Part shown: positions 660-12,406 of the stretch, piece by piece | How the letters are laid out: each line of letters opens with the position of its first letter | Position numbering within the stretch: the first letter of the stretch is position 1 | Virus record (IMG/VR): IMGVR_UViG_3300044634_002252 | Coordinates: 26,140-90,139 of that record | Direction: 5' to 3' (one strand) | DNA from: a virus | Length of the DNA: 64,000 nucleotides | Notes under the pieces: model-generated | What the model saw: only the letters and a program-made list of their open reading frames with translations | Databases searched by the model: none | What the model was told of the DNA's origin: nothing | Position numbers and translations under genes: made by a program

Positions 660-1244
660 GTGACCGCCTACACTCCAGAAATTATAAGATTTCTCAATTT
701 AATCCCAGAACCCTTTGAGGCTATAATAGTTTGCTACCCAAGATCTGGGTCAACCTATTTGGGCAGATATATGGACCAAAGAGCTATGGTACATTTAAAA
801 AAGTCTCATGCTTGCGAGGTAGTGCCTGGATACAAGATAGTAGGAACCTTTAGGAAACCTGAAGAGTCCATAACATCTTTTGTCTCTATGGAAAGTTACT
901 ATCAAAATAGAACCGACTATCAGGTTATGATAAACAAAGAGATAGCAAAATATAATCAAATGTTAGATTTTTTAATTAAAAACGCTGACATCATGGTTGA
1001 TTACCAAAGAATGATTATGGCCCCAGAAGAATCTATAAAACTTGTCTGCAATGCTCTAGGCATTAATGTTAAATATCATTTTGACTACATAGATCAGATA
1101 GAAGATATGCCAAAAGACAAATTCCTAAAATCTAGTAAGTATTTAAAACAATACAGGCAAATCGAAAATATGGTTTTAGAGTCTGATCTAGAGGCTTCCA
1201 AAAATCTATATAGCATGGCCTTAAAGCTAGATAAAACTATTTAG
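660..1244 (+). CDS. Sulfotransferase-like P-loop protein
   Basis: This 194-residue protein has the two sulfotransferase signatures for the nucleotide donor PAPS. The 5'-phosphosulfate loop is YPRSGSTYL at residues 26-34. A 3'-phosphate loop resembles FRKPEESITSF near residues 64-74. The C-terminal half (DYQRMIMAPEESIKLVCNALGI) matches the helix that follows in sulfotransferases. It is shorter than typical enzymes of about 250-300 residues, so acceptor-side elements are reduced. The start is GTG at 660 with no SD. A TATCAT hexamer ends six bases before it, so a leaderless start is possible. It is the only convincing plus-strand gene and faces the accessory cassette. The acceptor is unknown, and retained activity is not certain. 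Confidence 0.72.
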   Translation: MTAYTPEIIRFLNLIPEPFEAIIVCYPRSGSTYLGRYMDQRAMVHLKKSHACEVVPGYKIVGTFRKPEESITSFVSMESYYQNRTDYQVMINKEIAKYNQMLDFLIKNADIMVDYQRMIMAPEESIKLVCNALGINVKYHFDYIDQIEDMPKDKFLKSSKYLKQYRQIENMVLESDLEASKNLYSMALKLDKTI

Positions 1245-1270
1245 ATTTATTATAGCAATCTTGTGCTTTT

Positions 1271-1798
1271 TTAGATATTAGACAACTGCTCTGCCTCTTC
1301 TGAGACAGAAAGTTCTAGCTTTATTCTTTCATCAATTACGCTGTAGTCATCGGACATTTTTCTTCCATTTGATAGATATCTAAAGAAAAGTTTTCTATAA
1401 TGAAAATTGCAAAAAAAGCTGTGGTGTCCGTTATCATGTCTTGTTGCTTTTACAAGACTGCTGTATCCACACCAGCACTTTCCAAAACTATTTGAAATGC
1501 CTTTTCCAGATATTTCTGGAAAGCTTTCTCTTATTAGCTCTCTCTCGTCTATGACTATTTTAGCTATCTCATCCCATTGGTCTGGTGTTCTACGAAGAGT
1601 TATATCCTTCTCGTAATAATAGTGATAGTCGCACAAAAAACGTTTACCCCTGCTACCCTCAATATAAACAGAAGCTGGAGCAACACAAGATGTATTTGCT
1701 TTCATTGGATCATCAATAATATAGTTAGTTTTTTCTGGAATAATCATTATTGGGTCAAACGCTTGGCACAGCTGATCCTCTGAGATAGATCTTGTCAT
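1271..1798 (-). CDS. Tandem DUF7455-like double zinc-module protein
   Basis: This 175-residue protein appears to be two copies of the module seen singly at 130-372. Copy 1 (about residues 30-92) has C38, then FLCDYH with C56 and H59, and ends in VIDERELIRES. Copy 2 (about 105-162) has C108/C110, then FFCNFH with C130 and H133, and ends in VIDERIKLE. Copy 1 keeps only one Cys of the first pair (SCVAPAS in place of CxxCGA), so its zinc site looks degraded. The gene lies 11 bases after the oxygenase at 1810-2454 and ends convergently, 26 bases from the sulfotransferase-like gene. The function is unknown. DNA, RNA or protein binding is possible. Confidence 0.65.
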   Translation of the reverse strand: MTRSISEDQLCQAFDPIMIIPEKTNYIIDDPMKANTSCVAPASVYIEGSRGKRFLCDYHYYYEKDITLRRTPDQWDEIAKIVIDERELIRESFPEISGKGISNSFGKCWCGYSSLVKATRHDNGHHSFFCNFHYRKLFFRYLSNGRKMSDDYSVIDERIKLELSVSEEAEQLSNI

Positions 1799-1809
1799 TC
1801 TTTACTTCT

Positions 1810-2454
1810 TTATTCCGCACCCGTGGAGCCTAGCATATTCTCAGTATTATGATACCAATGTGGCATTGAGTACCTTAGTCCTGATTTTATAGGCCATACC
1901 TCATGTACATACAAAAAGTTAGACGGGAAAAATATAATACTTCCAGCTTTTGGCTTTAGCTTTACTCCAGAGTTTACAAACTCAATTTCTCCGCCATCGT
2001 AGTCATCATTCAAATACATTACCGAAGACAAAACTCTTGTTGAAATTCCCTGATCTTGATGAGCTGGAAGGTGACCACCTGGGCCATACTTTAACAAATG
2101 AATGCTTTCCTCTCTAGATTTTATGTTTTTTTCTGCAAATGGATAAATTTCTTTAGAGTAATGACTAAAAGCTTGTTCTAAAGATCCATATAGAATCTTT
2201 GAAATTTCTTTCATTTCTTTAGCATAGTAGTCATCATCAGATACGTCCTGCTGCTCTGGAAAAAATTTTTGCATATTAAAAACAGTATCGCCATACATCC
2301 AGGGAGACCACGTCTTAACAAAAGTATACTGGTCTCCATGCTCATTTGCTAAAAATCTTTTATCAATATCTTCTATTAGCTCAATAAGCTTGTCGGGATT
2401 TTCAATAGCTTCTTTGTAATATACAAGACCTAAATCTAAAATTTCATACTTCAT
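1810..2454 (-). CDS. 2OG-Fe(II) oxygenase, prolyl-4-hydroxylase type
   Basis: This 214-residue protein has the double-stranded beta-helix iron site: H132-x-D134 in LPAHQDQG, distal H184 in YVHEV and the 2OG-binding arginine R194 in SGLRYS, ten residues after the distal His as usual. The strand YLNDDYDGGEIEF between them is typical of P4H-like enzymes. The expected reaction is hydroxylation using 2-oxoglutarate and oxygen. The substrate is unknown; related enzymes act on proteins, peptides or small molecules. Its ATG overlaps the stop of the carbamoyltransferase (ATGA), so the two are translationally coupled. A second oxygenase lies upstream of the carbamoyltransferase. Confidence 0.85.
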   Translation of the reverse strand: MKYEILDLGLVYYKEAIENPDKLIELIEDIDKRFLANEHGDQYTFVKTWSPWMYGDTVFNMQKFFPEQQDVSDDDYYAKEMKEISKILYGSLEQAFSHYSKEIYPFAEKNIKSREESIHLLKYGPGGHLPAHQDQGISTRVLSSVMYLNDDYDGGEIEFVNSGVKLKPKAGSIIFFPSNFLYVHEVWPIKSGLRYSMPHWYHNTENMLGSTGAE

Positions 2455-3863
2455 CTAATTATTTCCGTTCCGTAAGTCTGCTCCCAATCAATTATATCAT
2501 TTTCATCATTGAGAAGTGGCTGTCCTTTTATGTTCAGGCTAGTATTTAAAAGCAGCGGAACTCCAGTTTTTTCATAAAACATCTTGAGCAAATCGTATAG
2601 TCCTGGGTGCTGAGATCTATTAACCGTCTGTACCCTGGAAGTACCATCCACGTGGACCACAGATGGAATTAGCTCTGGCTTTAAACACCTAGGAGTGTAT
2701 TGCATATAAGGGCTTGCATAGTCCATGTCAAACCATTCGGAGGCATGCTCCTCCATTACCACTGGAGCAAATGGCCTGAAGAGCTCTCTCTTCTTTATTC
2801 TGTTAACCTTATCCTTGATGTTTGGGTCACGTGGGTCTGCCAGGATGCTTCTGTTTCCCAGTGCTCTTGGTCCAAACTCTGCCCTACCGCTGGCTACTGC
2901 AGCAATCTGGTTTGTCATAATCTCATTAAAAATCTTGTCTACTGGATATTCTCCGCCAAGATCGTATCCAAGATAGGGTCCCTGCCAGTTTAGGTGCTTG
3001 CCGTATAGTGCAGCTGCTGCTCCAAGAGAACTTCCAGCATCTCCTGGATTTGGCATTATCCAGACATCTGGGAATATATCCCAAAGCATTGTATTAGCCT
3101 TGCTGTTCAGGGCACAGCCGCCCATAAATACTAGATTAGGACTATCTAGTTCCTGTCTGACTATGTACATAAAGTCCCACAGCCTTTCTTCGTAGACTCT
3201 TTGAACTGCTGCTGCGATATGAAACTTATCGTTGTCTGTGACATCCTGACCCCAGTCAATAATCCCTTTGTGGAAGTTATACTTTTGCTTATATACTGAT
3301 GGAAAGTACTCAGAAACTCTTTCAAAGTACAGGTCTGGATCACCATATCCTGCCATCCCCATCATGATGTACTCTTCCTCATTGGGTTTTAGCCCAAGCA
3401 ACTGTGTGAATGCAGAATAGAATAGTCCAAAACTAAATGGGTATTCCCACTTCTTGTGAAGATTAATTTTTTCTCCATCACCAATCCATACGCTAGAAGT
3501 GGCAAACTCTCCTATTGCATCCAGCACTACAATAGCTGCCTTATCAAATGGGCTCGTGTAATATCCTGCGCAAGCATGAGAGTAGTGATGCTTAAAGGCT
3601 TTATCGTATCTGTGCCATGGCTTCCAGTCCGCCTTCCCACCGTGTAGCAATAGCCTTAGCTGCTTTAGTCTTGGCTTTTCATAATATGCTATGGCATCTG
3701 GATTTCCAAACTTTAAGCCGTCATCCCAAAGAGCTTTGTTCGTGTACCAGTCATTCTTCTTCTTGCTATATCTTTCGGCATGACCTGCAAATAAAATTGT
3801 ATCCCCTTCAATTACTGCAAGTGCAGCATCGTGAGATGTCTCGTTAAATCCAAAAACTTTCAC
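2451..3863 (-). CDS. Carbamoyltransferase of the NodU/CmcH/TobZ family
   Basis: About 470 residues. The N-terminal part has the Kae1-like metal/nucleotide signatures: NETSHDAALAV near the start, then HHYSHACAGYY and VVLDAIGE, and later MGGCALNSKAN. The C-terminal carbamoyltransferase domain has GRAEFGPRALGNRSILADPR and ends LLNTSLNIKGQPL. The family moves a carbamoyl group from carbamoyl phosphate via carbamoyl-AMP to a hydroxyl acceptor. I chose GTG 3863, preceded by AAGGAG at five bases and lying next to the upstream stop; an ATG at 3902 would overlap the previous gene and lacks homology. The C-terminus stops about 20 residues after NTSLN, earlier than in many family members. Flanking oxygenases could create the hydroxyl acceptor. 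Confidence 0.88.
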   Translation of the reverse strand: MKVFGFNETSHDAALAVIEGDTILFAGHAERYSKKKNDWYTNKALWDDGLKFGNPDAIAYYEKPRLKQLRLLLHGGKADWKPWHRYDKAFKHHYSHACAGYYTSPFDKAAIVVLDAIGEFATSSVWIGDGEKINLHKKWEYPFSFGLFYSAFTQLLGLKPNEEEYIMMGMAGYGDPDLYFERVSEYFPSVYKQKYNFHKGIIDWGQDVTDNDKFHIAAAVQRVYEERLWDFMYIVRQELDSPNLVFMGGCALNSKANTMLWDIFPDVWIMPNPGDAGSSLGAAAALYGKHLNWQGPYLGYDLGGEYPVDKIFNEIMTNQIAAVASGRAEFGPRALGNRSILADPRDPNIKDKVNRIKKRELFRPFAPVVMEEHASEWFDMDYASPYMQYTPRCLKPELIPSVVHVDGTSRVQTVNRSQHPGLYDLLKMFYEKTGVPLLLNTSLNIKGQPLLNDENDIIDWEQTYGTEIIR

Positions 3864-3865
3864 TA

Positions 3866-4468
3866 CTACTCCTTGACGTACGGATGCTGCTCTGCATGCC
3901 AAATACTTCTGTCAACTTCTGGATGAAATTCTGGATCTAGATGTTTGGGAATGCTAGTATGCATATATAGCGCAGTATGTCTTGACCCAGACTTGATAGT
4001 TGTGATGCCATGAATGTACTCAGAGCCTGATGATGGGAAGAATACAGCAGAATATTTCCTTGGCTTGTACTCAAAATTTTGATTGGGGAAGTATATAACT
4101 CCACCATCATACTCGCTAGGATCATTTAAATAAATGATTGTGCTCCACTCTATAAATGGCTCAGGGTCTTGAGCATCTATGTGTAGATCGCCTTTAGTTC
4201 CTGGATTCCACCAAGAGCCAAACGCCTTGAATACATAAATAGGATTAGCAAATCCATTTAATTCTTTATGAACATCATTAGATTTGTGCCCATACTTGAT
4301 TAACAAATCCATTACCCTTTTATTGTATGGAAACGCTGTACCACCATACCTTTCAGAGTAGTACTCTGGGTATGGGTTTCTTTCAGATGGATTCTTTTGT
4401 TCATCAATAAGTGCCTGGGCATCCTCTGGTGTTATAAAATCATCAATGATAGTTATTCTATGCGTCAT
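3866..4468 (-). CDS. 2OG-Fe(II) oxygenase
   Basis: This 200-residue protein has the iron facial triad H96-x-D98 (DLHIDAQ) and H153 (YIHGI), with R163 (SGSRH) for 2-oxoglutarate, the same ten-residue spacing as in the enzyme at 1810-2454. The fold is prolyl-hydroxylase-like, with YLNDPSEYDGGVIYF as the core strand. SD AAGGAG lies just before ATG 4468. The gene sits between a glycosyltransferase (13 bases upstream) and the carbamoyltransferase, which begins two bases past its stop codon. The product probably hydroxylates the cassette's target; the substrate is not readable from the sequence. Confidence 0.85.
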   Translation of the reverse strand: MTHRITIIDDFITPEDAQALIDEQKNPSERNPYPEYYSERYGGTAFPYNKRVMDLLIKYGHKSNDVHKELNGFANPIYVFKAFGSWWNPGTKGDLHIDAQDPEPFIEWSTIIYLNDPSEYDGGVIYFPNQNFEYKPRKYSAVFFPSSGSEYIHGITTIKSGSRHTALYMHTSIPKHLDPEFHPEVDRSIWHAEQHPYVKE

Positions 4469-4481
4469 TTTTTCTCCTTCT

Positions 4482-5291
4482 TTAGTGTATTGACTTTACG
4501 TTAGATATAAACTTTCTAGAATCTATATCGTTTATCTTAAGACTATTTGGATTGTAGGGTACATCATCATTTGCATAAGGCAATGGTAGGATTGGACACT
4601 TATCTAAACCTATGTGCCTCCAAAAGCTGAGTGTAATGATGTCAAGTACTTTGCCATATTTATGTTCTATAGAAAATGTCCTATACTTATTTTCTATGGT
4701 TCTTTGATTTAAGTCTGAACCAAGACTGCTGGGAGCATTATAAACAGTATATCCATTCTCAAAACATCTGAAAGACAATAGCTCGTCTTCACCCAGATAC
4801 TTAACATATATAGGATAGCTAACTGGCTTTAGTGTGCTGGTCTTCGAAAAAATTAAATTCTTGCTTACTATATTGCTTTCATTAAACTGATCTGACTCTT
4901 CGGATTCGGAGATCACTGTAAATAAGTCTCTGTTTTTAAAGCGCTGCCTCCCAATTCCAGAGACAATAGTTTTGTCATCTTTAATAAAATCTATTAAAAT
5001 ATCGTCCCAGCCTTTTCTAACTAAGATGTCGTCTGATAATACCAAGAAATACTCTGAAGAGCTTTCGTGAATTGTTTTTGACTTGTACTCGCAAGGACTA
5101 TTTAGGTAATCCCAAAAGATATGAGTATAGGATATTTGTGGGCCAGAAAACATTTCTTTTCTGTCTAAAGGGTGTTGATCATAAACGTATATGTGAATAT
5201 CATTACTGGTTGACGCAATAAGATTGTCAACAATCTCTTTTAAAAATTTATTTTTATACGAATAAATAACGGCATCAATCGTTGTCATCAT
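4482..5291 (-). CDS. GT-A fold glycosyltransferase-like protein
   Basis: This 269-residue protein starts with a nucleotide-sugar binding strand and helix (TIDAVIYSYKNKFL). It then has FLVLSDDILVRKGWDD around residues 82-97, where S-D-D sits at the place of the metal-binding DxD motif of GT-A enzymes. A later acidic string, YLGEDELLSFRCF, resembles the ED/DE catalytic-side motif seen in GT2- and GT60-like enzymes. The likely role is transfer of a sugar from a nucleotide donor. The start has AGAGGT upstream. ATG 5291 overlaps the upstream DUF6065-like gene by 17 bases, and a second ATG follows directly. A glycosyltransferase beside prolyl-hydroxylase-like genes recalls hydroxyproline glycosylation, but this is only an analogy. 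Confidence 0.7.
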   Translation of the reverse strand: MMTTIDAVIYSYKNKFLKEIVDNLIASTSNDIHIYVYDQHPLDRKEMFSGPQISYTHIFWDYLNSPCEYKSKTIHESSSEYFLVLSDDILVRKGWDDILIDFIKDDKTIVSGIGRQRFKNRDLFTVISESEESDQFNESNIVSKNLIFSKTSTLKPVSYPIYVKYLGEDELLSFRCFENGYTVYNAPSSLGSDLNQRTIENKYRTFSIEHKYGKVLDIITLSFWRHIGLDKCPILPLPYANDDVPYNPNSLKINDIDSRKFISNVKSIH

Positions 5292-6042
5292 GACTTACCT
5301 CTGGAGATCTCTTATTAAATATGCCAAAATTCTTTTTTCTCCAAGCAAATTTTTTATAATATCCATAAAGCATTGATCGCCTATTTTCAGCCATAAGTTC
5401 ATGCTTATCTAGCTCTTCGTCAGTATCTATAACCTTTGATTCCCAGTCTTCTCTTTTAAATGGAATTATTTGAAATATTGGCGTACCCTTGGGAATCACA
5501 CCTCTAAAATTTCTCTTAAGAAAAAATGCAGTAAAGACTGGAAGTCCCCAAATATCAGACTCTACAATTCCAGATAGGGTATAAAACGGAAGGTCATGCC
5601 TGTTCATTGGTTGTGTAACTAGTACAGAGTACCCTGGAGGAGTTTCATAATACCAGTTCATCCTCCAGCCATAGTGAATTGGATGGCAATTATCTGGAAC
5701 TGGAACCTCTATCGTTGGCCTAGTGTCGACAATCATTACATCGCCCTTCCAGGACAAGACTGGGACTCCGTTTTCATCCAAGTCTACATACAGATCATCC
5801 TCTAAAACATACTGGTATCCAGCGGTTAGCGCATCAAAGAAGGGCATGCACATCTTTGTAGCTACCTGCGCTCCATCTGTTCCTAAAGAGTTTTGGGGGC
5901 TTAGGGTTTTATCACTATTTGATTTTTCAAACTTTGCCAAGCTTCTATACCATTCTGGTACATGCTTTGTAGCTGGTTGTGGTGCCGTTAGCCGATCGCC
6001 AGGCATTCTAAAAGATGGAACAAAATTAATTATGTTAGACAT
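5275..6042 (-). CDS. DUF6065-like protein, copy A
   Basis: This 255-residue protein resembles the DUF6065 family. Landmarks are PATKHVPEWYRSL near the N-terminus, MCMPFFDALTAGY, a central TPPGYSVLVTQPMNR and a C-terminal PKGTPIFQIIPFKREDW. The protein at 6042-6764 has all of these in the same order, so the two are paralogs. The aromatic GYSVLV core and GTP-x-x-QxIP strand suggest a beta-sandwich or cupin-like fold, but no catalytic set is known. The start ATG overlaps the stop of copy B by one base (TAATG). It is followed by the glycosyltransferase gene, which overlaps its end. DUF6065 proteins are of unknown function; a role in the modification cassette is inferred from position only. Confidence 0.7.
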   Translation of the reverse strand: MSNIINFVPSFRMPGDRLTAPQPATKHVPEWYRSLAKFEKSNSDKTLSPQNSLGTDGAQVATKMCMPFFDALTAGYQYVLEDDLYVDLDENGVPVLSWKGDVMIVDTRPTIEVPVPDNCHPIHYGWRMNWYYETPPGYSVLVTQPMNRHDLPFYTLSGIVESDIWGLPVFTAFFLKRNFRGVIPKGTPIFQIIPFKREDWESKVIDTDEELDKHELMAENRRSMLYGYYKKFAWRKKNFGIFNKRSPEVSHDDND

Positions 6043-6764
6043 TAATTATATTCTTTCTTTGACCTAAAGATAAGTTTATATCCATTTGCAAACATACTAC
6101 GCAGCTTAAGTCTCTGGTTTGATAAAGTTTTCTTTGAGTCTTCGGCATCAACGACCTCGGACTCCCAGCTATCTCTTTTAACTGGGATGACTTGTACTAG
6201 AGGAGTGCCACGTTTGATTACACCCTTAAATCCCTTTTCTACAATAAAAGATAGGTGACCTTCTGTAATAAATTTATCAGAGTCGACAAAAGCTGGTATT
6301 GCAGTTAATGGATAGGTGTCTCTGTGAACTGGATTTAAAAATAGGGTGCTATAGCCAGGCTCTGTCTTCATGTACCAGAAAGGCATTACCCTAAATAATG
6401 TTTCGTGTTGACGACTTTTATCTATTGGGTATTCGTCATATTGCTGTTTTTCATGGGAAGAAAACATATCTGCTTGGAATTGTTTAATTGCAATTGGTAT
6501 AGACCATGTTAACTTTTCTGGATCAGTAGCGTCTAAATAAACATCGCATGGCATAGTGATCATATAGCCAGCTGTCATTATATCAAACACTGGCATACAT
6601 CTTTTAACAGTTGAAGTAGAGTAGCCTTTTGGAAGAGTCTCGGAATCATTTACTGTGCCCTTTTGCTTTTTGTACCAATCTGGAACAAACTTTACTGCTG
6701 GCTCAGGCGGGTCTGTGTATGCGGAGGTGCCTTCACTATGTTGATAAAATCTAATCTTTGGCAT
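6042..6764 (-). CDS. DUF6065-like protein, copy B
   Basis: This 240-residue protein is a paralog of the protein at 5275-6042: EPAVKFVPDWYKKQ, RCMPVFDIMTAGY, EPGYSTLFLNPVHRD and KRGTPLVQVIPVKRDSW are the corresponding landmarks. I chose ATG 6764 because GAGGAG precedes it. An upstream TTG at 6776 would put codons inside the SD. The gene overlaps the end of the upstream gene (6751-7422) by 14 bases. The two copies share motif order but are well diverged elsewhere, so the duplication is not recent or has been under different selection. They might form a heterodimer. Function unknown. Confidence 0.7.
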   Translation of the reverse strand: MPKIRFYQHSEGTSAYTDPPEPAVKFVPDWYKKQKGTVNDSETLPKGYSTSTVKRCMPVFDIMTAGYMITMPCDVYLDATDPEKLTWSIPIAIKQFQADMFSSHEKQQYDEYPIDKSRQHETLFRVMPFWYMKTEPGYSTLFLNPVHRDTYPLTAIPAFVDSDKFITEGHLSFIVEKGFKGVIKRGTPLVQVIPVKRDSWESEVVDAEDSKKTLSNQRLKLRSMFANGYKLIFRSKKEYN

Positions 6765-7422
6765 AAAACTCCTCAATTCCTAAATCTATTATAGCATTCC
6801 TGGGAATTATCATATCGTAAATAGGCGATAGTCTTTTGACTTTTCCAAACTCATTATCTATCATATGACTGCCTTCTTTTTTAAATCTAAAAGGTATCAT
6901 AAATGGCTCTAAATACCTTGTGTCTTCAGGAATTTTAATGCAATGTCTTGTAGTTTCAAATATCTTAAATGCAGACTCTTCTTCTGGAACTACAAATCTA
7001 ACCTCACAGCTTGAATCGATTATCCAAGGAGTATAGGCCACAAAAGTATCTTCAAAGCACTCCGAGTCTAGGCCTGCAACATATGACGATCTATAAAATT
7101 GTCGCAACCATGGCCTATCTAAAAACTTTCTCTCTTTATTATTTACTAAAATAAAAACTTCTGCATGACTATATTGCCTCAGTCTAATAAAATTATCATC
7201 AATGCCGATTAGCTTTGGTGCTGGATAAAGAGCCTCTGCGTATTTATTAATTGGCTTTATTACGCTGTTCTTGTATTTTTCCAATGACTTTATTTTTTGA
7301 AAACTTAGCCACTTTTCTGGAACTCTAGAATTAAAAGAAATTTCTACAAAGCTTGGATCATATGTTGACTTCCATATTCCAAAATCATAGTCAGTATTAT
7401 TAAGTATTTCTGGTTTATCCAT
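6751..7422 (-). CDS. Hypothetical protein upstream of DUF6065-like pair
   Basis: About 223 residues, not recognised. ATG 7422 overlaps the stop of the upstream methylase-like gene (ATGGATAA, 8 bases). This is preferred over a TTG at 7434. The protein is soluble, with no signal peptide or membrane segment, and has a Trp/Tyr/Arg-rich middle (RPWLRQFYRSSY). Two prolines-and-aromatics strings (EPFMIPFRF and SPIYDMIIPRNAIIDL) faintly recall the DUF6065-like neighbours, so a distant relation is possible but unproven. Tight coupling to the genes on both sides argues that it works in the same pathway. Confidence 0.55.
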   Translation of the reverse strand: MDKPEILNNTDYDFGIWKSTYDPSFVEISFNSRVPEKWLSFQKIKSLEKYKNSVIKPINKYAEALYPAPKLIGIDDNFIRLRQYSHAEVFILVNNKERKFLDRPWLRQFYRSSYVAGLDSECFEDTFVAYTPWIIDSSCEVRFVVPEEESAFKIFETTRHCIKIPEDTRYLEPFMIPFRFKKEGSHMIDNEFGKVKRLSPIYDMIIPRNAIIDLGIEEFYAKD

Positions 7423-8128
7423 TAGGGCCTGCAATTAAAACAGATATGAAATCTGACTGGTTAATCTTCATGCTAAGAACTTTATCAATAACGGCAGACA
7501 CGCTATCTCTGACTATTGTTTGATCTATCATGGTGACATTAATTCCAATTCCTACGGGATGATGCTTTCCAAAAACAGTTTGAATATCTTTTAAAATTTC
7601 TATGATTTTAGAGTTGTCGTCTTTTCTATTTTTAACTAAAAATAAATATGAAGTATGACTTTGCTTAACCCAATCAAACTTTTCTAGCCTGCCTTTTGAA
7701 GACGAACCTGGAACATCATCTTCGAATATAAAAGACTTGCCACCTACTCCAAGTATAGCAGGCAAGGCTGAAATAATTGATGGTCCTGGAATTACCTCAA
7801 CTGGAAGGCCTTGCTCATGAGCAATAACAATTATTTTGCCACCTGGATCTGCTACTCCTGCCATCCCATCGTCTGGGCAGATCAAAACATTTTTGTTGTT
7901 TTTTAGTGCTTGAATAACTTCCAAAATTATTGGAACCTCAGACTCTTCGTCCATTGGGGCGTAGTACTCAATTATAGCGCCAGACGGAACAATAGCTAAG
8001 TCTTTGCAAAGATTGTCAAACATATATCTATTTTCTACTAAAACAATGTCACAATCTTTTATCGCAGATATCATCCTAAGACCAACGTCTAGCCTATTGC
8101 CAATGTCTACTCCGCCAACGATTAACAT
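7415..8128 (-). CDS. Tetrapyrrole (corrin/porphyrin) methylase-fold protein, RsmI-like
   Basis: This 237-residue protein shows the class III SAM-methyltransferase fold. The N-terminal strand is LIVGGVDIGN. The glycine-rich motif LICPDDGMAGVADPG (82-96) corresponds to the VSDAGTPxxSDPG motif of RsmI. The string VEVIPGPSIISALPAILGVGG (110-130) corresponds to the conserved IPGPSA region. RsmI methylates the ribose of C1402 in 16S rRNA; other members methylate porphyrins or diphthamide. Here the SDAG motif is changed to PDDG, so the substrate may differ. It has a good SD (AAGGAAC before ATG 8128) and is the first protein gene after the tRNA cluster, heading the accessory cassette. The substrate is unknown. 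Confidence 0.75.
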   Translation of the reverse strand: MLIVGGVDIGNRLDVGLRMISAIKDCDIVLVENRYMFDNLCKDLAIVPSGAIIEYYAPMDEESEVPIILEVIQALKNNKNVLICPDDGMAGVADPGGKIIVIAHEQGLPVEVIPGPSIISALPAILGVGGKSFIFEDDVPGSSSKGRLEKFDWVKQSHTSYLFLVKNRKDDNSKIIEILKDIQTVFGKHHPVGIGINVTMIDQTIVRDSVSAVIDKVLSMKINQSDFISVLIAGPNG

Positions 8129-8143
8129 CTGTTCCTTTCTTTG

Positions 8144-8215
8144 AGCCTCCTGTCAGGATTGAACTGACGACCTACGCATTACAAGTGCGTTGCTCTACCA
8201 CTGAGCTAAAGAGGC
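8144..8215 (-). tRNA. tRNA-Thr (anticodon TGT)
   Basis: The minus-strand cloverleaf runs from GCCTCTT (acceptor, 8215-8209) to AGGAGGC plus discriminator T. The anticodon loop CTTGTAA sits on the stem ACGCA/TGCGT and gives anticodon TGT. The T arm is CAGTTCAATCC-like (TTCAATC loop). CCA is not encoded. It lies only one base downstream of tRNA-Glu, so processing from a common transcript is needed. Confidence 0.95.
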
Positions 8216-8216
8216 G

Positions 8217-8289
8217 TACTCCCAACGGGATTCGAACCCGTGCTACCGCCGTGAAAGGGCGACGTCCTAGGCCACTAGACGATGAGAGC
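8217..8289 (-). tRNA. tRNA-Glu (anticodon TTC)
   Basis: The minus-strand cloverleaf has GCTCTCA pairing with TGGGAGT, including a G-U pair at the acceptor end. The anticodon loop is TTTCACG with anticodon TTC, and the T arm is GGGTTCGAATCCC. CCA is not encoded. It is separated by four bases from tRNA-Asp upstream and one base from tRNA-Thr downstream. Confidence 0.95.
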
Positions 8290-8293
8290 AGTG

Positions 8294-8367
8294 CGACCCT
8301 GACCAGACTTGAACTGGCGACCTCCTCCGTGACAGGGAGGCGCTCTAACCAACTGAGCTACAGGGCC
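8294..8367 (-). tRNA. tRNA-Asp (anticodon GTC)
   Basis: The minus-strand cloverleaf has GGCCCTG pairing with CAGGGTC and discriminator G. The anticodon stem CCTCC/GGAGG carries the loop CTGTCAC with anticodon GTC. The D arm is GCTCAGTTGGTTAGAGC and the T loop is TTCAAGT. CCA is not encoded. Confidence 0.95.
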
Positions 8368-8545
8368 CTTGTCCACTTTTATCCCTTCTCTCTGCGGGAG
8401 TGGTGTAGACTAAACCATTAGAGCGAATGGAGAGAATCGAACTCTCACCGTCAGTTTGGAAGACTGAGGCACTACCACTATGCAACATTCGCATTGCCCA
8501 TTTTTATCCTTATACCCTTAGGAGTGGTATGGGCCACACCATTAG
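8368..8545 (-). repeat. Two related ~53-base spacers flanking tRNA-Gly
   Basis: The spacer between tRNA-Gly and tRNA-Asp (8421-8368) and the one between tRNA-Asn and tRNA-Gly (8545-8493) share the same plan on the minus strand. Both start CTAATGGT, continue to ACCACTCC, then have GGATAAAA-TGG-CAA just before the next tRNA. Each can form a small hairpin between its GGTxTxG and CACC halves (8-9 bases in). The similarity suggests that a tRNA plus its spacer was duplicated as a unit, or that the spacers are conserved processing signals. Confidence 0.7.
8422..8492 (-). tRNA. tRNA-Gly (anticodon TCC)
   Basis: The minus-strand cloverleaf has a perfect acceptor stem GCGAATG/CATTCGC with discriminator T. 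The anticodon loop CTTCCAA sits on TCAGT/ACTGA and gives anticodon TCC. The T arm is GAGAGTTCGATTCTCTC. CCA is not encoded. It is flanked on both sides by the related spacers at 8368-8421 and 8493-8545. Confidence 0.95.
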
Positions 8546-8617
8546 CTCCCCTCCGTGGATTCGAACCACGAACCGACGAGTTAACAGCTCGTTGCTCTGC
8601 CATTGAGCTAGAGAGGA
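8546..8617 (-). tRNA. tRNA-Asn (anticodon GTT)
   Basis: The minus-strand cloverleaf has TCCTCTC pairing with GAGGGGA (one T-G pair) and discriminator G. The anticodon loop CTGTTAA sits on ACGAG/CTCGT and gives anticodon GTT. The T arm is CGTGGTTCGAATCCACG. CCA is not encoded. It is the first tRNA of the cluster in the direction of transcription, following the subtilase-like gene. Confidence 0.95.
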
Positions 8618-10426: not shown

Positions 10427-12406
10427 TTAAGATCCACTCCTTATGTTTACTGTTGTTGCAATACCGCTTATTGAAACTGCGGATAGGGCTGCTTGCACTC
10501 CAACGATTGCTGCGACCACTACCTTTTCTGATTGCTCTCTAATCTGGGGACTCATATCTGCCCCAGCATTTCCCAAAAAGTTAACAAGTTCTGTAGCTCC
10601 CCCAAGAACGTCTCCAAGGAGCGGGATAGCTGCTAGCGACTCATCTAGAACTATGTCATCCTGTTGAGCGGCCACAAACAGGGCCTCCAAGGCCTGCTGG
10701 TACTCCTCTGAGCCCTGCTCAGCAGTTTCAAAGGTTTCTATGGCTGCGGCCACTAAAGCCTCTGCCTGAGCCTCTGAAAGCTCTGTAGGGTCTATTTGAG
10801 CTAGGTCTACCTGCATCAATTCTTCAGCAGAAAGCTCCTCTGGTAATTCTTCCGCAGATGTGATAGACTCTTCTTCTGGTTCTATAATAGGAGGTTCAAT
10901 TGGTTCAGGTTCAATTGGAGAGGGTTCTACAGGTTCTGTGGTTGGCTCTTCTGGTTGCTCTAATTCCTCTGGCTCTGGTGTGGGCAGTACTTCTGGCTCT
11001 GGCTCCAGTGACGGTTCTGGTTCTGGGATTACTGGTATGGAGGGCTGTGGCTCTGGTACAACGGGCACGACTGGGGATGGCTCGGGAAGAGTCTCAATTG
11101 GAATATCTTCATAAGTAATAAGAAGAATCAATACCTTTACAGTCCCCCCTGCTGGATCATTCTGAAAAGTGTCGTTTGATACTTCTACTGTTGCTGAGGT
11201 TTCTCCAGCCAGTAGTTCAAACAAAATAGAAGAGACGTCTTGTCCACGAGTGGAGTTATTGGGGTCTCCGTAATAACCAACTGCGCTCGCAATCCTTTGA
11301 CCTTCTGGCGCAACTATCTCGACGAATGATCCTTCATTTGTAACTGTTGCACCATTTGGAACTGTAGGTGCAGGAGGTGGAGGAGACGCCACTACTGTCG
11401 AAGCAGTTGCGGAGAATGAAGAGTAGACGGCAGCTGTGTCGTTGTCAGAACGAATTCTGAATTGGTAAGTCTGATCTAATCCACCTGTAGTTGCAAATGA
11501 ATCTCTAGGTATGGTGATGCTGTTTGTGGTTGAAGCAATTCCCCATCCTGTATCAAAGTTGTTTGTAGACCAACTAATTGCATAACGCTCTACGGCAGTG
11601 TTGCTTTGCACTGGAACATCCCAAGTAAGTTGAACTGAGCCATCTGAAAGCTGCGTAGCTGTAACGTTTGTTGGTGCGTTAAGTACTAGAGGTTCTGGGG
11701 TTGGGGTAGGTTCTGGTGTTGGTTCTGGGGTGGGGGGAGTGAACGGTGCCTCTTCTGTTGGCTCTGGAGCTAGCTCTGGAGTCTCTTCTGTTTCTTGGAT
11801 TCCGTAAGTCTCGAAGTCAACAACTGAGCCATCGTTTAGACGAACTCCAGTTCGTGGGTTGTTCTGTGGGTACTCTGGGCCACTGAGGGTATAAGCCATA
11901 GCAACTGTTCCATCTGAGAGGATAGCTGCAGTAATTACGATATGAGTTGGTTCTGCTGTGCCTTGTAGCCAAATAGGTCTAGCTGAAATATCTACCTGGA
12001 ATCCACCATCTGATGAACGAATGATTAAATGTTCGTCAGATCTCCACTGTGGGTAGACAACCCAGTCGAAAGAGTATAGTGAGATAGACGGTGTGGTTGG
12101 GTATGTCCAGTAAGTTCCATCTGGCTGACCAAAGGTAATTACTGAGTTAGTGGTGGCATAAATATTGCTGTAAGTTACTCCGTCAAAAGTTACGGTAGTT
12201 GTCAATGGGATCTGGTAAGAGACGTCATCTCCACCGCAGGTGGCTATTTCAGTGACTACTGGCTCAGTTGAGCCGTTTTGCTGAGCGGCTGCTACGGCAG
12301 CAACCTGTCCAGGATTGACACAGTTAGCGTGTGCAAAGCTAGAGCCCATAAAGGATGGGAAAAAAGCTAAAGACAATGCTATAAAGATTTTAAGTGGGGT
12401 TTTTAT
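10427..12406 (-). CDS. Secreted Fn3 and Pro/Glu-rich repeat protein (probable ATA start)
   Basis: About 659 residues if started at ATA 12406. From there the N-terminus is a textbook signal peptide: basic KTPLK, hydrophobic IFIALSLAFF, and SFAHA before the cut. AAGGAG lies six bases before the ATA, and the frame is closed by a stop a few codons further up. The only other option is TTG 12376, which has no SD and loses the basic region. Then come a beta-rich domain (to about 195), a Pro/Thr/Glu linker, an Fn3-like domain (about 240-345, LSDGSVQLTWDVP), a beta domain, a long Pro/Glu repeat region (about 440-520) and an Ala-rich helical C-terminus. It is probably exported and attached to the envelope or virion. 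It resembles actinobacterial surface proteins. The role is unknown. Confidence 0.7.
   Translation of the reverse strand: MKTPLKIFIALSLAFFPSFMGSSFAHANCVNPGQVAAVAAAQQNGSTEPVVTEIATCGGDDVSYQIPLTTTVTFDGVTYSNIYATTNSVITFGQPDGTYWTYPTTPSISLYSFDWVVYPQWRSDEHLIIRSSDGGFQVDISARPIWLQGTAEPTHIVITAAILSDGTVAMAYTLSGPEYPQNNPRTGVRLNDGSVVDFETYGIQETEETPELAPEPTEEAPFTPPTPEPTPEPTPTPEPLVLNAPTNVTATQLSDGSVQLTWDVPVQSNTAVERYAISWSTNNFDTGWGIASTTNSITIPRDSFATTGGLDQTYQFRIRSDNDTAAVYSSFSATASTVVASPPPPAPTVPNGATVTNEGSFVEIVAPEGQRIASAVGYYGDPNNSTRGQDVSSILFELLAGETSATVEVSNDTFQNDPAGGTVKVLILLITYEDIPIETLPEPSPVVPVVPEPQPSIPVIPEPEPSLEPEPEVLPTPEPEELEQPEEPTTEPVEPSPIEPEPIEPPIIEPEEESITSAEELPEELSAEELMQVDLAQIDPTELSEAQAEALVAAAIETFETAEQGSEEYQQALEALFVAAQQDDIVLDESLAAIPLLGDVLGGATELVNFLGNAGADMSPQIREQSEKVVVAAIVGVQAALSAVSISGIATTVNIRSGS

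Follow-up and report, generated by a model that had tools for sequence, protein, structure and literature searches.

In the Skp1 pathway, sugars are added sequentially after prolyl hydroxylation (PMC3515798). The virus PBCV-1 encodes a prolyl 4-hydroxylase with peptide substrates (Eriksson 1999, as cited in PMC7019647 and PMC9301287). Among phages, carbamoyltransferases that modify DNA co-occur with thymidylate synthase; others adjoin, for example, glycosyltransferases (PMC8670742). Here we analyse a stretch of 64,000 nucleotides (the window), corresponding to bases 26140-90139 of the 90,139-base IMG/VR virus record IMGVR_UViG_3300044634_002252, which carries a cassette of two 2-oxoglutarate (2OG)-Fe(II) oxygenases, a glycosyltransferase (GT), an O-carbamoyltransferase, two DUF6065 paralogs and a protein that we call U6751. 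Hydroxylation, glycosylation and carbamoylation is most likely the best reading of this cassette, for which we infer target, sugar and chemistry. The initial annotation of the sequence had proposed these steps with sulfation as a further one, and its interpretation is supported in part. In the literature that we searched, we found no paper on this gene set and no description of protein decoration of the kind proposed here in bacterial viruses.

RESULTS

The cassette was compared across two sets of IMG/VR loci. In the first, anchored on the carbamoyltransferase (80 loci, 62-82% identical), the order U6751, DUF6065, DUF6065, GT, oxygenase A, carbamoyltransferase is kept in about 20 loci. The second set, free of conditioning on the carbamoyltransferase, comes from a scan with the GT profile as anchor; it covers the best 80 matches, with weaker relatives unsampled. 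Clustered at 90% identity, the 80 matches give 39 clusters. Neighbours were counted in the 32 or 34 clusters with enough sequence, with a downstream reach of 6.5 kb. In 39/39 clusters the first labelled cassette gene to follow the GT is oxygenase A, and U6751 and two DUF6065 genes lie upstream of the GT in 31/32. Downstream, oxygenase B is within reach in all 34 clusters, the carbamoyltransferase in 29, SGNH-type genes in 24 and bona fide PF11397-type genes in 9. The core order persists to about 30% GT identity, with variable tailoring genes inserted, and its conservation is far above chance. Thus the suggestion of the initial annotation that a multistep cassette is inherited together holds in other phages, where co-occurrence and order are both kept and the core order recurs in the 39 GT clusters. 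Between the window and its closest relative (L002), dN/dS is 0.01-0.09 for the core genes, DUF6065 paralog B being the most constrained (0.012), and 0.15 for the RsmI-like gene. The cassette is under strong purifying selection. In the same relative, DUF6065 paralog A is broken into two open reading frames (ORFs; L002:7140-7862), by a frameshift or an assembly error.

All ten ORFs listed by the initial annotation were found in place, but the boundaries that it drew (660-8128) do not delimit a natural unit. Six to seven of the ten form the conserved cassette, at approximately 1810-7434. The sulfotransferase-like gene (660..1244, plus strand) faces the block from outside the cassette. Its product belongs to Sulfotransfer_3 (35.6 bits, cut-off 27) and has a P-loop-like PRSGST, seen as YPRSGSTYL. 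No fetched relative has a homologue of it, so sulfation, which had been put forward as a step, was rejected and the gene dropped from the pathway. The protein without known family at 1271..1798 (minus strand) is a lineage-specific, non-core neighbour, present in about 14 other contigs. At the other end, the RsmI-like tetrapyrrole-methylase-fold methyltransferase (7415..8128, minus strand; TP_methylase, nearest RsmI) is also non-core; such genes occur in 13 clustered loci of the GT-anchored set at varying positions. Could the genes then be unconnected morons carried along together by related phages, with no joint pathway? The carriers are related, the tailoring genes vary, and the sulfotransferase, RsmI-like and 1271-1798 genes are clearly lineage-specific. 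However, a five-gene core keeps its order in 31/32 to 39/39 loci through deep divergence and at very low dN/dS, and the genes outside turn over while the core stays, so that we consider this explanation very improbable indeed.

The two oxygenases carry the first step of the proposed pathway. Oxygenase A (3866..4468, minus strand; 2OG-FeII_Oxy_3 30.5 bits, cut-off 27) and oxygenase B (1810..2454, minus strand; 61.8 bits) both match PF13640 above cut-off. Catalytic residues, on whose presence the initial annotation had made its reading depend, are conserved in the oxygenase and carbamoyltransferase alignments: H96/D98/H153/R163 (HxD...H...R) are invariant in oxygenase A, as are H132/D134/H184 in oxygenase B, where R194 is nearly so. 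The residues for iron and for 2OG are thus intact in both enzymes. In profile searches of the PDB the nearest relatives of oxygenase A are prolyl 3-hydroxylase 1 and prolyl 4-hydroxylases, and those of oxygenase B are prolyl 4-hydroxylase, PKHD-type and HIF prolyl hydroxylases (PHD2), with TET-like enzymes weaker; the oxygenase profiles match prolyl 3-hydroxylase 1 at 1.5e-7 and prolyl 4-hydroxylases at 2.8e-8, ahead of TET. Both enzymes are most likely prolyl-hydroxylase-like, and we propose peptidyl proline as their substrate.

The GT-A glycosyltransferase (4482..5291, minus strand) matches PF00535 and PF11397, each below cut-off; for PF11397 it scores 17.7 bits against a gathering cut-off of 21, and 3/18 members of its family match at E<=0.01. 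When the family profile was aligned to a profile of phage PF11397 proteins, hhalign gave 98.7% (E 2e-16), as against at most 26% for control glycosyltransferases of the same genome. These profile comparisons indicate that the GT is specifically and remotely homologous to PF11397 (GT60, the Skp1 hydroxyproline GlcNAc-transferase family). A PDB sequence search with the GT, PF11397 and DUF6065 profiles returned nothing usable. The Skp1 parallel drawn by the initial annotation gains weight from the prolyl-hydroxylase-like oxygenases, the PF11397-related GT and the PF11397 genes of 9/34 relatives.

The carbamoyltransferase (2451..3902, minus strand; Carbam_trans_C/N 183.9/141.9, phrog_1601 329 bits) is a TobZ/NodU-type enzyme with a Kae1-like N-domain and a YrdC-like C-domain, and HHxSH and GRxExGPRALGNRS are conserved in its alignment. 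Its start is most likely GTG 3863, which is preceded by AAGGAG, the stop of oxygenase A lying two bases earlier. It is related to TobZ, GdmN and novobiocin carbamoyltransferase. Since those enzymes have small-molecule substrates and 2OG oxygenases often act likewise, the cassette might be a small-molecule pathway, for instance for a modified nucleotide sugar or metabolite, serving host or phage. We regard this as quite unlikely: the cassette has no scaffold-forming enzyme, its GT is GT60-like rather than of natural-product type, and the conserved partners are located with structural and lysis genes. The initial annotation recognized the oxygenases, GT and carbamoyltransferase correctly and overlooked the SGNH/GDSL-type genes that are usual in relatives. 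These have an invariant AGCSxTxG block, a C-terminal DxH and a weak GDSL lipase match, so the SGNH label is a lead rather than proof. Outside the window, the same phage encodes one SGNH-type protein and another oxygenase (L085:489-1391 and 1819-2526).

The three remaining core genes are on the minus strand: U6751 (6751..7434; 227 aa, no known family), the first gene of the core, DUF6065 paralog A (6042..6776; phrog_7084 156.9 bits, no Pfam DUF6065 match reported) and paralog B (5275..6042; phrog_7084 119.8 bits, Pfam DUF6065 just sub-threshold). Judging from relatives, U6751 probably starts at ATG 7422 and paralog A at ATG 6764. The strong phrog_7084 matches agree with the DUF6065-like assignment that the initial annotation gave to both paralogs; what it missed is the predicted fold. 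In Foldseek comparisons, an AlphaFold model of paralog B (pLDDT 82.7) matches dCTP deaminase as well as dUTPases (prob 1.00, E 9e-5, TM 0.74 by target). That of U6751 (pLDDT 89) matches less strongly: a herpesvirus dUTPase at prob 0.99 in the viral library and E. coli dUTPase at prob 0.84 in the PDB. The models therefore assign a dUTPase-like beta-clip fold to DUF6065, extended from paralog B to paralog A, and more weakly to U6751. The DUF6065 sequence is in register with dUTPase motifs 2 to 4 (PPGYS...NR, GIVESD, GTPIFQ). Sequence-level proof of the kinship was sought, but hhalign is not significant and the claim rests on the fold; U6751 against DUF6065 profiles gives 22%, and PF00692 has no match in any block-carrying record. 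Because the DUF6065 alignment lacks both motif 5 and the Asp of motif 1, dUTPase activity is unlikely. dUTPases are typically trimers, which, with three adjacent divergent paralogs, suggests that U6751 and the two DUF6065 proteins may form a hetero-trimer.

A nucleotide-enzyme-like fold brings DNA into question as the target, with hydroxylated pyrimidines glycosylated and carbamoylated against restriction. In T4, phage DNA is glucosylated by glycosyltransferases. Moreover, 5-hydroxymethylcytosine (5hmC) is a substrate of a phage-type carbamoyltransferase (PMC8670742), and all three dUTPase-fold candidates, U6751 and the two DUF6065 proteins, would fit. However, the known DNA-acting carbamoyltransferases accompany thymidylate synthase, and PF00303 (thymidylate-synthase/hydroxymethylase) is missing here. 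It was found in 0/34 related records, several of them fragmentary (controls positive in 9/14 genomes), and Tet_JBP (PF12851) above cut-off likewise in 0/34, so that neither route to a DNA target was found; the oxygenases, too, score higher against prolyl hydroxylases than TET. The doubt that the initial annotation had voiced about DNA proved justified. DNA is disfavoured as the target, and we give this alternative only a slim chance. ThyX, a flavin-dependent thymidylate synthase, adjoins the carbamoyltransferase in L013-L016 and L040 (Pfam-confirmed in L016).

Where else does DUF6065 occur? The core block is absent from 41/63 DUF6065 clusters, and the role of the family is therefore wider than the cassette. 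In unrelated phages (L151, L160, L169, L172, L185), and in L093, L094 and L110, which are probably mis-binned phage contigs, DUF6065 lies among tail-fibre or virion genes. Its neighbours in L151, L160, L169, L185 and L093 include Mtd_N/tail fibre (L151), collagen-like (L160) and fn3 proteins; family support for these contexts is firm in L151, L160 and L093 and weaker in the others. Outside the block, PF11397 (73-100 bits) and 2OG oxygenases accompany DUF6065 several times. Haloviruses (HF2, HRTV and relatives) have a DUF6065 protein, about 30% identical, near baseplate and virion genes (L113, Halorubrum phage HF2, 8905-9789). Cellular contexts (Phenylobacterium, Bradyrhizobium, Gammaproteobacteria) gave no clear functional link, and we found nothing on DUF6065 in the literature searched.

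These neighbourhoods bear on whether the cassette remodels the host surface instead, decorating an envelope glycan or surface protein for superinfection exclusion or receptor masking. Next to the block are genes for holin-like proteins, peptidases (M23/LysM, CHAP) and exported lectin-like proteins, carbamoylation and O-acylation belong to the usual repertoire of glycan tailoring, and pelagimyophage glycosyltransferases have been proposed to alter host lipopolysaccharide (PMC7029224). We nevertheless keep host-surface remodelling as a tentative possibility that we rather doubt: a pair of prolyl-hydroxylase-like oxygenases together with a GT60-related enzyme argues for a polypeptide as acceptor, the family matches in the cassette include no lipid-carrier, flippase or polymerase gene, and DUF6065 and PF11397 recur next to tail-fibre genes.

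What might the cassette decorate? The initial annotation left the target undecided and overlooked a candidate acceptor upstream of the cassette, an fn3 protein (10427..12376, minus strand) whose linkers are rich in PEPTPEP and which has a hydrophobic segment at its C-terminal end. The corresponding proteins of other loci with the block have PA14, lectin-like, PT-repeat or extensin-like matches, and a Pro-rich fn3 protein lies upstream in the block-positive loci of the carbamoyltransferase set that have enough flank. As a block-specific acceptor it was rejected, since several block-negative phages encode it too, leaving it a candidate only. Collagen was also rejected: its repeats abound in relatives without the block and are rare in those that have it. 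The genome itself has one weak collagen-like ORF; a tail-fibre-like ORF with short GADGADGAD collagen-like repeats lies at L084:14195-15478 of the same genome. Related phages with a carbamoyltransferase and no block (G015, G017, G021-G025) encode many 2OG oxygenases and have very large collagen-like ORFs, the longest of about 1560 aa.

The virus is a tailed phage by its genes (terminase, portal, head protease, major head protein, tail proteins). Upstream of the window it encodes a WhiB-like protein (L085:4240-4524), recognised by its cysteine pattern; as WhiB is an indicator of actinophages (PMC10202952), this suggests an actinobacterial host, whose habitat is probably freshwater. The cassette genes share a strand and overlap or abut, an arrangement consistent with an operon, and a promoter and terminator scan gave a result no better than shuffled sequences. 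Five tRNA genes (Thr, Glu, Asp, Gly, Asn) lie just upstream (8143-8617). Elsewhere the phage has a second glycan cluster, with a GT4, an FkbM methyltransferase and a GT2-like gene in a row (L084:8167-10542), and, far from the cassette, a second possible sulfotransferase-like ORF without Pfam match (L084:4950-5495; HFPRSGGKYF).

DISCUSSION

Based on these observations, we propose a model for the cassette. The two prolyl-hydroxylase-like oxygenases would introduce hydroxyl groups on a polypeptide, most likely on proline, and the GT60-related glycosyltransferase would transfer a sugar onto the new hydroxyl. The glycan would then be capped, by the carbamoyltransferase here and, in relatives, also by enzymes of the SGNH type (esterase/O-acyltransferase-like) and of PF11397. 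Together, the two DUF6065 proteins and U6751 may be, or join, a trimeric dUTPase-fold assembly that could, for example, present the acceptor or handle the nucleotide donor. The analysis shows that gene set and order are conserved, that catalytic motifs are intact and that selection is purifying, and it assigns the folds; we infer the protein target, proline as the residue, the order of steps, the sugar and what the dUTPase-fold trio does. A protein target is favoured because of the prolyl-hydroxylase/GT60-like pairing and the presence of DUF6065 and PF11397 among tail-fibre genes, and a virion or exported phage protein would be the best target since DUF6065, often with PF11397, lies among such genes elsewhere. 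That the phage thus decorates post-translationally a protein of its own, which would end up on the virion or, after export, on the cell surface, appears to us an evenly balanced proposition. Its most specific form, a hydroxyproline-glycoprotein pathway in which prolyl hydroxylase, GT60-like enzyme and dUTPase-fold hetero-trimer would assemble glycans, carbamoylated and in relatives also acylated, on extensin-like linkers (PEPTPEP) in a surface protein of the phage, we consider doubtful.

Several observations weigh against this model. In the first set, L004 and L008 retain U6751, both DUF6065 genes, the GT and the carbamoyltransferase with no oxygenase A nearby, so hydroxylation is perhaps not obligatory for glycosylation; the GT-oxygenase A pairing is very strong, not absolute. 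Every block carrier belongs to related phages, and the synteny therefore stems in part from shared descent. Most non-core DUF6065 loci are without oxygenase or GT, the substrate of 2OG oxygenases is not readable from the fold alone, the Pro-rich protein also occurs in several phages that lack the block, and such phages are the richest in collagen repeats. Finally, despite the prolyl 4-hydroxylase of PBCV-1, an analysis of its particles is reported to have found no hydroxyproline (reference 162, as cited in PMC7019647).

What would the model imply? Orphan 2OG oxygenases, carbamoyltransferases and glycosyltransferases are numerous in phages of abundant aquatic bacteria, where they are usually classed as auxiliary metabolic genes. 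A fixed operon that ties such enzymes to DUF6065 and to tail-fibre neighbourhoods suggests that they may decorate phage surface proteins. If true, this would explain the orphan genes and add a hydroxylation-dependent glycosylation route to the viruses of bacteria. DUF6065 gains a first structural clue from the predicted fold, and the question of decoration becomes testable by virion proteomics.

How does the cassette compare with known systems? With the dUTPase superfamily DUF6065 shares the predicted fold and the register of the motif 2-4 regions; unlike it, DUF6065 lacks the motif 1 Asp, motif 5 and a PF00692 match, and the profile comparison is not significant. The 5hmC carbamoyltransferase of metavirome phages (PMC8670742) is likewise a phage enzyme of the same family, but is accompanied by a thymidylate-synthase-family hydroxymethylase, whereas the cassette records have PF00303 in 0/34. 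TobZ/NodU/CmcH O-carbamoyltransferases have both domains and the motifs in common with the window enzyme, and differ in that their acceptors are antibiotics or Nod factors. The PBCV-1 prolyl 4-hydroxylase is, similarly, encoded by a virus; it is a lone enzyme of an algal virus, and we know of no GT or carbamoyltransferase linked to it. The Skp1 pathway of Dictyostelium and Toxoplasma (PhyA and Gnt1) couples a prolyl-hydroxylase-family oxygenase to a PF11397-family GlcNAc-transferase, to which the window GT is related. The cassette, in contrast, is viral and operon-encoded, has carbamoyltransferase, SGNH-type and dUTPase-fold partners, and its GT is below the PF11397 cut-off. By analogy, then, the cassette resembles the Skp1 hydroxyproline pathway, and we set it beside that pathway rather than class it as a member.

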